Shown here piece after piece: positions 11,500 through 48,000 of a stretch of 58,705 nt of DNA. The DNA is from a virus. The DNA lies in the IMG/VR virus record IMGVR_UViG_3300017941_000010, positions 1 through 58,705 of that record. One strand, given 5' to 3'. The stretch's first letter is position 1, and the number at the start of each line of letters is the position of its first letter. The translations under genes and the position numbers were made by a program. The notes under the pieces are model-generated. The model had not been told where the DNA came from and searched no databases. It was given only the letters and a program-made list of their open reading frames with translations.

Positions 11500-11536
11500 T
11501 TCGCGACGGAGTTGCAGTGCATTGAACAAATGCAAC
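11500..11536 (+). repeat. Solitary CRISPR-repeat-like unit in the methyltransferase leader
   Basis: A single degenerate copy of the CRISPR repeat, with no neighbours at the 71-base period. Its 3' end reads AGTGCATT-GAACA-AATGCAAC: relative to the canonical TGCATC/GATGCA stem both partners changed (C to T, G to A), so pairing is kept. It ends 15 bases before the methyltransferase ATG at 11552. Same orientation as the arrays. Confidence 0.65.
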
Positions 11537-24886: not shown

Positions 24887-25063
24887 GTGATCATCGAAGG
24901 CAAAATCCTGGTGTGCGATGTTTGTAAGGCCAAGAAGGTCTACGACGAAAGCAAAGCTTTGCCTCCGCGGTGTTGGAATCGAAAGTGCCGGAGTTGGCGA
25001 TGGAACACTGAAGGTGAAGACCGACGCACTTGGCCAAGAGTAAAGCCAACCTCACGTAATTAA
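24887..25063 (+). CDS. Zinc-ribbon microprotein running into CRISPR array 2 (58 aa)
   Basis: GTG start (VIIEGKILVCDVCKAKKVYD). Two ligand pairs, C-x2-C (CDVC) and C-x3-C (CWNRKC), followed by a Trp/Arg-rich stretch RSWRWNTEGEDRRTWP, make a small zinc-binding domain likely to touch nucleic acid. Its TAA lies inside the first degenerate repeat of array 2. No clear Shine-Dalgarno sequence; start uncertain. Confidence 0.55.
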   Translation: MIIEGKILVCDVCKAKKVYDESKALPPRCWNRKCRSWRWNTEGEDRRTWPRVKPTSRN

Positions 25064-25582
25064 AGTGCATCGGAGAGATGCAACGCAGTTGGTGGCTAGC
25101 GTTGGCAGGCCGTAGGTGTGTCTTCATGGAGTTGAAGTGCATCGGGCAGATGCAACGCAACAAGGCTCCAACAGAAGCTTGCAGGTCTATACGGTCTCAA
25201 CGCAGGTAAAGTGCATCGCGTAGATGCAACCCTTGTATGTGTTGGTAAATCGGCTAGCCTAGCCGTTTCAGCACAGGTAAAGTGCATCGGGGAGATGCAA
25301 CTGGGATTGGGGAGTTCAACCATTCCTTTATTGGGATCGCAACGGGTTTAAAGTGCATCGTGCAGATGCAACCTTGCACCACACACGCAAAACAGGGTGT
25401 CCGTCAGTAGTCACGAAGTAGAGTGCATCGAGTAGATGCAACCCTTGTATGTTGGTAAATCAACCGATCTAGCCATTTCAACGCAAGTAAAGTGCATCGG
25501 GGAGATGCAACAGCAGCGTCTCAGTGTCGTTCTTATCCTGAAGCGGTGGCGATGCAAGTAGAGTGCATCGGACAGATGCAAC
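25048..25582 (+). CRISPR. CRISPR array 2, 8 diverged repeats, 7 spacers
   Basis: Repeat ends at 25084, 25156, 25230, 25301, 25372, 25442, 25511 and 25582 (period 69-74). Only the 3' part of the repeat is well kept: (A/G)AGTGCATC, a five-base loop, GATGCAAC. Loops are GGAGA, GGGCA, GCGTA, GGGGA, GTGCA, GAGTA, GGGGA and GGACA, while the stem never changes. The 5' half is only loosely related to array 1. Two spacers (from 25231 and from 25443) are near-duplicates. There are no cas genes beside it, but orientation matches cas12, so the single effector probably serves it in trans. Confidence 0.92.
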
Positions 25583-30307: not shown

Positions 30308-30856
30308 ATGCTGGAGCAAAAAGAAGCATCGATTCATCTTTATCGCCAGGAACTGGTGGGCAAGCTGTGTCGGCGGGTGAGTTGGTCAGACAAGATTGAA
30401 GATTTGATAGAAGAAATGACCCAGCGGATGAAAGAGCGAGGAAGGAAAGGACTGGCTGCACCGCAGGTGGGCGCATATTTGCAGCTGGCGCTGGTGACGC
30501 TGCCCAGCGAAAAGATCGAGATTCTGGTGAATCCGGAGATTGTGAATTTGGGTGGGAAAGATCTGCTGGAGGCGGAAGGATGCGTGAGCCTGCCGCCTGC
30601 CGAACAGGCCACGGCGCGCGTCTGGCGGAGCGAGATAGCGCACGTGCGCAGCGGAACGATAGATAACCCTGAAGCGGCTCACATCGCTGTCTACAGGGGG
30701 CAGACGGCCCGCACGGTGCAACACGCGATTGACCACCTGCAAGGCATCTTTTTTGTCGACCGTTGCCAGCCGATTGCACGGGGGATCGTGCTGCGGAAGT
30801 ATGAGGATTATTTAAAAAAAAGCTTGGCAGCACATACCGCCCGGCAGGTACTATAA
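30308..30856 (+). CDS. Peptide deformylase homologue lacking the catalytic Glu (182 aa)
   Basis: All three deformylase motifs are visible: motif I GLAAPQ (48-53), motif II EGCVS with metal ligand Cys92, motif III QHAIDH, giving His139 and His143. The canonical HExxH glutamate is Ala140 (codon GCG), so the three metal ligands remain but the general base is gone. Length is normal for a full deformylase. It may bind formyl-peptides or metal without turnover, or use another residue. The stop codon overlaps the start of CRISPR array 3. Confidence 0.85.
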   Translation: MLEQKEASIHLYRQELVGKLCRRVSWSDKIEDLIEEMTQRMKERGRKGLAAPQVGAYLQLALVTLPSEKIEILVNPEIVNLGGKDLLEAEGCVSLPPAEQATARVWRSEIAHVRSGTIDNPEAAHIAVYRGQTARTVQHAIDHLQGIFFVDRCQPIARGIVLRKYEDYLKKSLAAHTARQVL

Positions 30857-31462
30857 AAGCGCCATAACAGTGCATCGTGCAGATGCAACTTGATGAACTC
30901 GAACATCTGCGCTTTCCTTCCACGTAGCAATGCAGTTTGAGTGCATCGGACAGATGCAACGTCGACCTGAAGTACATTCCTCTTCAGACTCGCGCAGCAA
31001 TGCAGTTTGAGTGTATCGGGCAGATGCAACTGCGAGGTCAGAGAGGCCGTGACCATTGCGCCCTGTAGCAATGCGGTTGAAGTGCATCGGGCAGATGCAA
31101 CTAATCACAAAGGCGGTGTTGGGAAAACTACGTTCGTGGCAACGCATTTTGAGTGCATCGGACAGATGCAACATGAGGTATTTCAGCATCTTTACTCAGT
31201 TGTCAGAGTGGCAACGCATTTTGAGTGCATCGGACAGATGCAACTTAGGGAGTGGTGAAGTTAAGCCACACAACAACGGGTAGCAACGTAGTTTAAGTGC
31301 ATCGAACAGATGCAACGGCTGGTCTTAATTTCCGGCCGCCTTATCCTCGATGGGTAGCAACGTAGTTTAAGTGCATTGAACAGATGCAACCGAAGAGCCT
31401 CGGATTGATGAACGTGATTTCTTTTGTAGCAATGGAATTGCGGTGCCTTGCGGAGATGCAAC
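30853..31462 (+). CRISPR. CRISPR array 3, 9 repeats, 8 spacers
   Basis: Repeat ends at 30889, 30960, 31030, 31101, 31172, 31244, 31316, 31390 and 31462, period 70-74. The inner repeats match array 1 closely; the first has lost its 5' half and the last is degenerate (TGCCTT-GCGGA-GATGCA). The spacer at 31102-31135 translates as NHKGGVGKTTF, the deviant Walker A of ParA. Same orientation as cas12; no adjacent cas gene. The array begins inside the deformylase stop codon. Confidence 0.95.
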
Positions 31463-31519
31463 ACCGGGGCCGTAATGCTCTCCATCAAAAATAATGTTTT
31501 GATCTTGGCAAACTGCATA

Positions 31520-31531
31520 TACAATAAGCGC
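31520..31531 (+). promoter_or_regulatory. -10 box TACAAT directly before the BrnA-like start
   Basis: TACAAT (31520-31525) is six bases from the ATG, with AAGCGC between, and no ribosome site: a leaderless-type promoter similar to those at 2165 and 6157. Confidence 0.45.
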
Positions 31532-31810
31532 ATGGCGATCACCAAAAAATTGATTGACGACGATGGCGAAGTGCGCGAATTAACGGAAGAAGATTTTGCT
31601 TTTCTCGTACCTTTTTCTGCGCTGCCAAAAGCTGAACAGAAGACGCTCCGTGTTCTTCGTCAGCGTGGCAAGCAGAAAGCTCCTCGCAAAGTGCCTATTT
31701 CGATTCGCTTGTCTCCCGATGTCATCGAGGGCCTGCGCGCTACAGGGGAAGGATGGCAGAGACGTACCAATGAGGTGTTGCGCTCCTGGCTGACTTCTTC
31801 TGCACGGTAA
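31532..31810 (+). CDS. BrnA-like antitoxin, orphan, between CRISPR arrays 3 and 4 (92 aa)
   Basis: The C-terminal half, KVPISIRLSPDVIEGLRATG then EGWQRRTNEVLRSW, is the ribbon-helix-helix signature of BrnA antitoxins, which bind their own promoter and neutralise the BrnT RNase. The N-terminal 50 residues include an acidic segment. No BrnT-like gene is found beside it: upstream is array 3 and downstream array 4. It may be a stand-alone repressor or an anti-toxin decoy. Confidence 0.85.
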   Translation: MAITKKLIDDDGEVRELTEEDFAFLVPFSALPKAEQKTLRVLRQRGKQKAPRKVPISIRLSPDVIEGLRATGEGWQRRTNEVLRSWLTSSAR

Positions 31811-31823
31811 AACCTGGGCAGAG

Positions 31824-33467
31824 ATTCCATCGAAATGTCAGTGCATCGTAGAGATGCAACTTATGACATGTTGCACACATTGGACGCAGAGTGCATCGCA
31901 GTGATGCAACACGCTGGCATTGGGAATCATGGTACCGGACGCAGATCGCAATGGAATTTAAGTGCATCGGGCAGATGCAACCTCGGACGACCGGCCTTAT
32001 GGCCGACCAAATGGTGTAGCAACGCACTTTGAGTGCATCGAGCAGATGCAACCTCACATGGTTTGTCGCATTCACCGCGTTAGAAGGGTAGCAATGCGGT
32101 ATGAGTGCATCGGGCAGATGCAACCTCAATGCTGAGACCTAAGAGACGGACGTGATAGCGTAGCAATGTGGTTAAAGTGCATCGGGAAAATGCAACCGCT
32201 CACATGGCTGTCTCACGTCGACTCATTCTTGGTTTCAACGCAGGTAAAGTGCATCGAATAAACGCAACGAACCAATGTCCTTGTTAATAACGCTGTCTAC
32301 ATACGTCTCAAAGCAAGCAGAGTGCATCGGGCAGATGCAACAACATGTGGCCATTTATGGAGGAAAAGATAATGATGCAGTAACGCGGTTTAAGTGCATC
32401 GGGTAGATGCAACATTGTCCATCAGACGAATAAAGAGGCCGCTCATGTAGCAATAGAGTTTGAGTGCATCGGACAGATGCAACAGTGGAGCACAGGTCAG
32501 ACAGTCAATCAGTCATACGTAGTAACGCAGTTTGAGTGCATCGGCCAGATGCAACATTGTCGTACTTGTTATATTGATCTCTAAGATAGGTAGCAATGTA
32601 GTCGAAGTGCATCGAGCAGATGCAACTGTAACAAGCCGACACAAACGGCCATAGGTTTTGTAGCAATGCAGTTTGAGTGCATCTGGTAGATGCAACAGAT
32701 TGGTGTAGATTTTCTTGTTGCCAAGAACCAAGTAGCAATGCAGTTTGAGTGCATCGAACAGATGCAACTGCGGCGCATAGCTCAGGTGCGCGTGGGTGAT
32801 ACATAGTAACGCAGTTTGAGTGCATCGGCCAGATGCAACTCATCGGAATATGGCATATCGGTTTGTAGATAGATAGCAACGTGGTTTGAGTGCATCGGAC
32901 AGATGCAACAATGTCGTGCCAGCATAGAGGATTGGGATGATCTTGTAGCAACATAGTTTAAGTGCGTCGGACAGATGCAACTTGCCTGACCCGCACCAGC
33001 ATGGGTCATTACGTCGTAGCAACGCAGTTTAAGTGCATCGAACAGATGCAACACTGGATAAGGTACTGGAAACGCATCGGTAGGTAGTGTAGTAATGCAG
33101 TTTGAGTGCATCGAACAGATGCAACTGTCAAACAAATAGGGTTCGCTTCCCTGTCATAGCATTGGTAGTAACGCAGTTAGAGTGCATCGGACAGATGCAA
33201 CCTTTGTTGTCAGTGCGAAGGGCCGTGCGAGCGCCGGTAGCAACGCAGTTTGAGTGCATCGAACAGATGCAACAGAAAACGGTACCCCTTGGTGAACGAT
33301 GTTCGTCGTAGCAACGCAGTTTGAGTGCATCGAACAGATGCAACAACATCGTGACTGTGGACCGCAGGGTTTCGGCAAGTAGCAACGCAGTTTGAGTGCA
33401 TCGAACAGATGCAACTTCACGATTCTGTGCGCTCGACCGGCAATCGAGCGTAGCAACACAGTTTGAG
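31824..33467 (+). CRISPR. CRISPR array 4, about 24 repeats
   Basis: Longest array: complete repeat ends at 31860, 31910, 31981, 32052, 32124, 32196, 32268, 32341, 32413, 32483, 32555, 32626, 32696, 32768, 32839, 32909, 32981, 33052, 33125, 33201, 33273, 33344 and 33415, then a truncated copy. Period is 70-73 except one 50-base unit (31861-31910) and one 76-base unit. Repeats in the first 450 bases are degenerate (some stems broken, e.g. GGGAA-AATGCA at 32196), while the last ones, with loop GAACA, are almost identical to each other. The final repeat is interrupted after CAGTTTGAG and joined to GCATTGCATGCAGC of another repeat family. No cas gene adjacent. Confidence 0.95.
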
Positions 33468-46569: not shown

Positions 46570-47137
46570 ACAACTAGCGAAGGTGCCGGCGCTCAGTTCG
46601 ATGTTCAAACATGCAGAAGGTGGATTGCGCTCGGTACTCGACGCCATGCGCTTTTGTGTTCATGACGAAGTGATTGCAGCATTTTTGAAAAAGTACGATG
46701 CCATGCCGGAAACGGATCGGCGCTGCGTTCCATGGGAAGCGATTGCGCTTTCTGCCAACCTGGATGGACGAACTTTGTGCGGCGCAATCATGAATGCGAT
46801 TACGCTTTCTTTTGGCAATACATCAAGAATTCTGGCTTTGACCGCGCATCCAAGCTTGATGAAAAAGAGAATTGAATTTGCCAAAATGCCAAGCGGCGAA
46901 AAAGATCGCACGGCAGTCGACATTATGGTGGGTGCGCTCCCGTCTCCGAAGGGGCCAACCTTCATCGGTAAAGCGGTGTTTGGAAGCTCGGCAGAAAAAT
47001 CAGAAGAATCATCTGAATCAAGTGAAGTTTTTGGCAGTGAAGATGACTTGGACGATTTGTTTCCATCGCCTAGCGCCATGCTGGAAAAGCTGGTGCCAAT
47101 CCGGCAGAAACGCTTGGGAGACGGAGACCAACAATGA
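46523..47137 (+). CDS. Putative terminase-small-subunit-like protein (204 aa)
   Basis: Start MTRTAEALKRLKVKPEQ; the longer frame from 46307 would overlap the previous gene almost fully. Helical with SMFKHAEGGLRSVLDAMRFC and CGAIMNAITLSFGNTSRILA, then an acidic Ser/Glu/Asp tail. Position before the terminase large subunit suggests a packaging partner, but no helix-turn-helix is obvious; it could also be unrelated. Confidence 0.5.
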   Translation: MTRTAEALKRLKVKPEQLAKVPALSSMFKHAEGGLRSVLDAMRFCVHDEVIAAFLKKYDAMPETDRRCVPWEAIALSANLDGRTLCGAIMNAITLSFGNTSRILALTAHPSLMKKRIEFAKMPSGEKDRTAVDIMVGALPSPKGPTFIGKAVFGSSAEKSEESSESSEVFGSEDDLDDLFPSPSAMLEKLVPIRQKRLGDGDQQ

Positions 47138-48000
47138 AACATATTGTTGGCTTTTCCGGGGGAATCGATTCGCAACGCACAGCTCTTTGGGTACGTGAGC
47201 GTTTTGCTGCTGAAGATATCATCCTGTTGAACTCCCCCGCTGGTGGCAATGAGCATCCGCTGACCACAGCTTTCATTGCGCAATATAGTCGTGAAGTATT
47301 TCCAGTGGTTACGGTTGATAATCTTGTGCGCGATATGTGGGAGACCGATGGCTTTGCAGAGCATCGAGGATTCGATGGGAATGCGCCGCTCGACTTTCCG
47401 ACCATGATTGAGATTAAGAAGCGCACTCCATCGCGCAAAGCGCAATTCTGTACTGAAAAGTTGAAGTTAGTTCCTCAGCGGCGTTGGGTGCGCGACAACG
47501 TTCAAGATGATTATGAACGATACACGGGCTTGAGACGTGAAGAATCAGAAGCACGCAAAGACACGCCATTGCGCGAGTGGGATGATTACTTTGATTGCTA
47601 TGTGAATCATCCTATTGCGGCAATGGCGAAGCAACAGTGCTTTGACGATGTGCTTGCAGCGGGCGAACTCATCAATCCGCTTTATTCCCTTGGTTTTGGT
47701 CGCGTCGGATGTGCCCCTTGCATTAACAGCGGCAAGGAGGATATGCGTCTTTGGGCCGACCGATTTCCGGAGATGATTGACAAGATCAGAAGTTGGGAAC
47801 AGCGTACAGGTTTCACGTTCTTTGCTCCCTGCGTTCCAGGCATCCTGCCACGCATAGATGCACGCGGAAAATTCACGATCCACAACTATGTGGATGAAGT
47901 GGTGGAATGGGCGCGTACAGATCGTGGCGGCAGACAGTTCAACATTTTTAACGGAATTGCGCGCCCAGCGTGTGAAAGCAAATATGGACTTTGTGAATGA
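47134..48000 (+). CDS. PAPS-reductase-like ATP pyrophosphatase (288 aa)
   Basis: The P-loop-like motif FSGGIDSQRTALWV at the N-terminus (SGGxDS) defines the PP-ATPase family. YTGLRREESEARKDTP and a Cys cluster (GRVGCAPCINSG) match phosphoadenosine-phosphosulfate-reductase-like phage proteins. Such enzymes transfer sulfur or adenylate; in phages a link to nucleotide or DNA modification is suspected. It overlaps the upstream gene by ATGA and precedes the terminase. Confidence 0.88.
   Translation: MKHIVGFSGGIDSQRTALWVRERFAAEDIILLNSPAGGNEHPLTTAFIAQYSREVFPVVTVDNLVRDMWETDGFAEHRGFDGNAPLDFPTMIEIKKRTPSRKAQFCTEKLKLVPQRRWVRDNVQDDYERYTGLRREESEARKDTPLREWDDYFDCYVNHPIAAMAKQQCFDDVLAAGELINPLYSLGFGRVGCAPCINSGKEDMRLWADRFPEMIDKIRSWEQRTGFTFFAPCVPGILPRIDARGKFTIHNYVDEVVEWARTDRGGRQFNIFNGIARPACESKYGLCE

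Follow-up and report, generated by a model that had tools for sequence, protein, structure and literature searches.

Cas12 gene and arrays of the phage

The stretch of DNA considered here, called the window throughout its length, is a 58.7-kb virus record coding for an integrase, RecT, a large terminase, a portal-like protein and a major head protein, and therefore probably belongs to a temperate tailed phage. A second contig, of 68 kb, contains the entire window at 99.99% identity together with the spacer that is the main subject of this work; the CRISPR system is thus not an assembly accident. On the plus strand, positions 2907–5144 code for a Cas12m-like effector of 745 amino acids, with RuvC residues E447 (at a position usually held by D), E630 and D718, and zinc-finger cysteines C691, C694, C708 and C711. 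In a profile search the best match was a Cas12m chain (E 3.5e-10), and PADLOC called the protein Cas12u1 (2e-26). With Foldseek, the top four matches of an AlphaFold model were Cas12m proteins (E 1.8e-12), a result of supporting value only, the model having a pLDDT of just 58. The best similarity among Cas12 proteins is thus to Cas12m, both in sequence and, within the limits of a model of that pLDDT, in structure.

Four arrays, all on the plus strand, bring together about 50 repeats and about 45 spacers. Array 1 (5202–5879, 10 repeats) is directly downstream of the Cas12 gene; array 2 (25048–25582) has 8 strongly diverged repeats; array 3 (30853–31462) has 9 repeats of 37 nt and 8 spacers; array 4 (31824–33415), with 23 repeats and about 21 full spacers, resumes array 3 past an interrupting open reading frame and is followed by a degenerate half repeat near 33450. 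The interrupting frame (31448–31810, plus strand) is of the BrnA antitoxin type and is assigned no CRISPR role; homologous DNA is present in several Acidobacteriaceae genomes, and no adjoining toxin partner was seen. A peptide deformylase gene (30308–30856) immediately precedes array 3, and a solitary repeat (11500–11536) stands just before a DNA methyltransferase frame. Two spacers of array 2 (25231–25264 and 25443–25474) look alike (CCTTGTATGT..TGGTAAATC..CTAGCC), perhaps as a diverged duplication. Further along, the phage carries a phosphoadenosine phosphosulfate reductase-like gene (47134–48000).

The repeats have drifted, 41 of the 50 being distinct, and the share of non-consensus bases is 0.26 over positions 1–16 but 0.016 over stem and tail. 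G at position 18 and A at position 36 are invariant, and C at position 37 is found in 103 of 105 distinct repeats. In a related phage (G003), 15 repeats swap two base pairs on both sides, double compensatory changes that keep the 6-bp stem. The crRNA of Cas12m2 has six base pairs, a G.A pair and a final C (PMC10442227), all of which recur in the present handle, with a loop shorter by 3 nt. To judge from this pattern of substitutions, the handle is under selection, which is the residue to be expected if selection acts on a trimmed crRNA.

Related phage contigs carry similar arrays, with a Cas12 70% identical in G002 (78.6 kb) and 60% identical in G003 (55.3 kb). The RuvC residues are E-E-D in the present phage and in G002, and D-E-D in G003 (relative P0003). 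In G002, genes for Cas4, Cas1 and Cas2 come directly after the Cas12m-like gene (L003:12263–14207), an unusual arrangement for V-M-like loci, and the array has 11 identical repeats. No Cas1 was detected in the 68-kb contig, nor in that of G003. A contig of an Acidobacteriaceae metagenome-assembled genome, PLGM01000217 (L005), has a frameshifted Cas12 relative (155–2373) with a D to N change in RuvC-III, and a mini-array of three repeats (2560–2740) beside genes that we take, from reading the sequences by eye, to be of the TolC/RND efflux type. From this relative and from the target matches described below, we infer that the hosts are Acidobacteriaceae.

A spacer reading as a ParA motif

Within array 3, the 34 bases of spacer 31102–31135 on the plus strand (TAATCACAAAGGCGGTGTTGGGAAAACTACGTTC) lie exactly between the 37-base repeats 31065–31101 and 31136–31172. 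The original prediction was that this spacer belongs to a phage-borne CRISPR, that it encodes NHKGGVGKTTF, the deviant Walker A motif of ParA/MinD ATPases, and that it derives from a gene of that type. The first point is supported by the flanking repeats and by the Cas12 gene on the same phage. The second is confirmed for the frame starting at 31103, that starting at 31102 giving a stop followed by SQRRCWENYV. In 45 spacers, read in any of the six frames, KGGVGKTT would be expected by chance about 6e-8 times, and NHKGGVGKTT 3e-11 times. As for the origin of the spacer, the best 20 matches listed in a low-stringency blastn search of plasmids were all genes of the ParA family (the first with E 6e-3, 87.9% identity over 33 nt), so that the ParA reading holds at the DNA level too. 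Plasmid matches in Borreliella (87.9%) were rejected as targets, being read as convergence on the motif, and matches in INPHARED were weak, none being better than E 0.1. The spacer has no match in the phage itself: a second copy is absent from the window, whose nearest other stretch agrees over 15 nt with one mismatch, and a search of the contig containing the window detected no ParA gene. Taken together, the in-frame motif and the plasmid matches make a ParA-type gene a well-supported target of the spacer.

The protospacer itself was not found when 2.9 million viral contigs were scanned with exact and wobble patterns, 84,980 prokaryote genomes with the exact sequence, and 398 Acidobacteriaceae genomes with up to three mismatches allowed, the scans of the collections being exact and the 398 genomes sampling a single family. 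The spacer encodes the NHKGGVGKTT of ParA/MinD ATPases, and the collections searched yielded no gene with exactly its sequence. When exact, wobble-degenerate and seed-plus-PAM patterns were run on the viral contigs, the sole copy was the phage's own, in the near-identical contig; a single 18-nt match to the pattern was an unrelated coincidence. ParA genes with NHKGGVGKTT are present in 49 other viral contigs, at 7–12 mismatches from the spacer. The closest chromosomal parA of Acidobacteriaceae reads NQKGGVGKTTT, differs at 6 of the 34 bases, and is preceded by TGC or CGC, not by TTC.

Targets of the sibling spacers

The native stretch of arrays 3 and 4 was compared, as one contiguous piece, with the 398 Acidobacteriaceae genomes, and near matches outside arrays were retained. 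Spacer 32125–32159 (all spacers discussed here are on the plus strand) has a protospacer with one mismatch, after TTC, on contig C336 of the metagenome-assembled genome G004. The gene concerned (453–1337 of that contig, 294 amino acids) had no match in Pfam, NCBIfam, PADLOC, PHROG, PDB, phages or plasmids. It is also matched, 54 bases away and with two mismatches, by a spacer of the related phage G003, so that spacers of two different phages fall in one gene. Spacer 32697–32731 matches, after TTC and with 4 and 5 mismatches, a PDC-M19B candidate defence gene in genomes G225 and G364 (the assignment was tested on the G225 protein, that of G364 being a close homologue by eye). A PDC-M19A partner adjoins it in both genomes, a type IIG restriction-modification gene is nearby in one, and a PDC-M19B match sits on a 2.9-Mb contig. 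Spacer 32982–33015 matches a SEC-C motif gene of G145 (three mismatches, TTC), its complement encoding RNDPCWCGSGK, and has a weaker match in G215, with five mismatches and preceded by TTT. Spacer 33274–33307 corresponds, again with three mismatches and TTC, to a gene for 270 amino acids in G012, where a phage-type integrase gene lies about 2 kb away. In array 1, spacer 5666–5700 carries, in antisense, a methyltransferase motif (EADELPGLVVDKY) of genes which we presume to be RlmI-like from that conserved motif; the matches have 4–5 mismatches. Comparison of the spacers with related phages gave no convincing cross-targeting.

A shared protospacer-adjacent motif was thus recovered: TTC precedes the best match of five spacers, four of arrays 3 and 4 and one of G003, at 1–5 mismatches, an agreement expected by chance at about 1e-9. 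Shuffled spacers did no better than 8 mismatches at the same loci. These five independent spacers agree with a 5' PAM of the TTN type, which is that of Cas12m2; spacer 5666, whose matches lack TTC, is the exception. In all five TTC-flanked targets the guide runs antisense to the gene, and three of the five sites, a small number, fall in the first 11% of the gene's length, where guides meant to block expression would be expected. Invariant motifs (ParA Walker A, SEC-C) seem to be preferred, but this may reflect ascertainment, matches with mismatches being biased to conserved motifs.

These targets bear on the rest of the original prediction, which had a partition gene of a plasmid or plasmid-like phage, that is a competitor rather than the host chromosome, as the object of targeting. 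The ParA-type gene stands, and a plasmid or plasmid-like phage as its carrier is a possibility, no protospacer having been found; as far as the ParA spacer goes, its poor fit to acidobacterial chromosomal parA speaks against that gene as the target. As a general statement about the arrays, the opposition of competitor and host is too narrow, because one sibling spacer matches, on a 2.9-Mb contig, a gene that is a candidate for anti-phage defence, and others match genes in Acidobacteriaceae assemblies. The ParA gene of an accessory element, be it plasmid, phage-plasmid or host island, would fit best.

Predicted silencing and its alternatives

The CRISPR system of the phage is a minimal one of type V, which combines a Cas12m-like effector with about 45 guides and has a TTC PAM deduced from five other spacers; we judge it rather probable that one of its crRNAs silences the ParA gene of an accessory element. 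The crRNA, keeping its Cas12m-like hairpin handle, would guide Cas12 to a gene of the ParA family with the sequence ...TTC|TAATCAC... (protein SNHKGGVGKTTF), probably near the start of the gene. In Acidobacteriaceae, the carrier of that gene would be an accessory replicon, such as a rival plasmid or phage-plasmid, or a genomic island. Binding of Cas12 would block transcription; without the ATPase, the element would not be stably kept. With a motif of fixed amino acids as target, escape would be limited to changes in the PAM and at wobble positions. When Cas12m proteins carrying D-E-D, H-D-D or N-D-D were tested, each of them bound its target and none cut (PMC11013384). Because published Cas12m proteins bind without cutting, silencing by RNA-guided DNA binding is the most likely mechanism predicted here, cleavage being also possible; we infer the choice of silencing from homology and one D-to-E change. 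Against this explanation, the ParA protospacer is absent from every collection searched, spacer 5666 matches its RlmI-like genes without TTC, and the ParA spacer has the sense orientation relative to its gene, whereas the other six spacers with an assigned gene are all antisense. In addition, with degenerate repeats and an apparent lack of adaptation genes, the array may be ageing. Were ParA silenced rather than cut, rival replicons would be evicted without breaking host DNA. More generally, once a phage-borne Cas12m-like effector can be linked to actual genomic targets and to a PAM, its function becomes open to direct testing.

A different ATPase could be at stake. The target might be a ParA-like protein of a host defence or island locus rather than a plasmid partition gene, as in phage CRISPRs directed against anti-phage islands of the host, a counter-defence role to which we give a modest chance. 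The PDC-M19B matches, with PDC-M19A alongside and the type IIG gene near one of them, speak for it, their 4 and 5 mismatches against it. Likewise, only two of the 398 Acidobacteriaceae genomes have the NHKGGVGKTT plus TT pattern, each on a short contig (3.2 and 5.5 kb), both genes adjoining an uncharacterised gene; the two proteins have a weak local similarity to PDC-M28B, but this covers the Walker A region only, and they match PHROG 164, ParA-like partition. That the arrays are relics, with guides which no longer act in the absence of adaptation genes and with a substituted RuvC, seems to us unlikely. In favour of this reading are the degenerate repeats, the apparent lack of Cas1 and other adaptation genes in the contig containing the window, and the frameshifted chromosomal relative. 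Yet the drift is limited to the 5' part of the repeat that is trimmed, with the handle conserved, the Cas12 protein is full-length and 60–70% identical to its relatives, and the second contig carries the same spacer. Finally, targeting of the host's chromosomal parA/soj is disfavoured and very improbable: the best acidobacterial matches are indeed chromosomal-type parA genes, but one of their six mismatches is PAM-proximal and changes H to Q, TTC is missing, none comes within three mismatches among the 398 genomes, and targeting would harm the own host of a temperate phage.

Returning to silencing of an accessory ParA gene, its closest known counterparts are the type V-M systems (MmCas12m2, GoCas12m, UnCas12m4a), through the best sequence and structure match, the 6-bp stem, G.A pair and terminal C of the repeat handle, and a 5' T-rich PAM. 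Cas12m has been found on plasmids and some prophages (PMC11656645). By contrast with those systems, the phage proteins have 745–770 amino acids against about 600, RuvC reads E-E-D in this phage and D-E-D in the relative G003, and G002 has Cas4-Cas1-Cas2, which typical V-U loci lack. A broader and distinctly speculative view would have a family of temperate acidobacterial phages using V-M-like CRISPRs, each with several dispersed arrays, to silence accessory genes in the host population, whether partition genes of rival elements or defence genes of the host, with invariant motifs chosen so that escape is hard, one lineage acquiring spacers through its own Cas4-Cas1-Cas2 and the present phage having frozen guides. 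Two phages independently aimed at one gene of one acidobacterial assembly would point to a specific arms race.

Vibrio phage ICP1 directs a type I-F CRISPR against PLE. The phage described here may be alike in aiming its CRISPR at accessory loci with which the host resists phages, one spacer matching a PDC-M19B candidate with 4–5 mismatches, and it differs by a single-effector type V system, a temperate lifestyle and the lack of adaptation genes. In huge phages, the spacers of CRISPR-Cas systems (including dCas14-like and Cas-Phi) are directed both at genes of the host and at other phages, and repression by a dead effector has been proposed (PMC7162821). These systems likewise have a phage effector without Cas1 and Cas2, whereas the contigs studied here are of 55–79 kb, with putative Acidobacteriaceae hosts, a Cas12m-like effector and several dispersed arrays.
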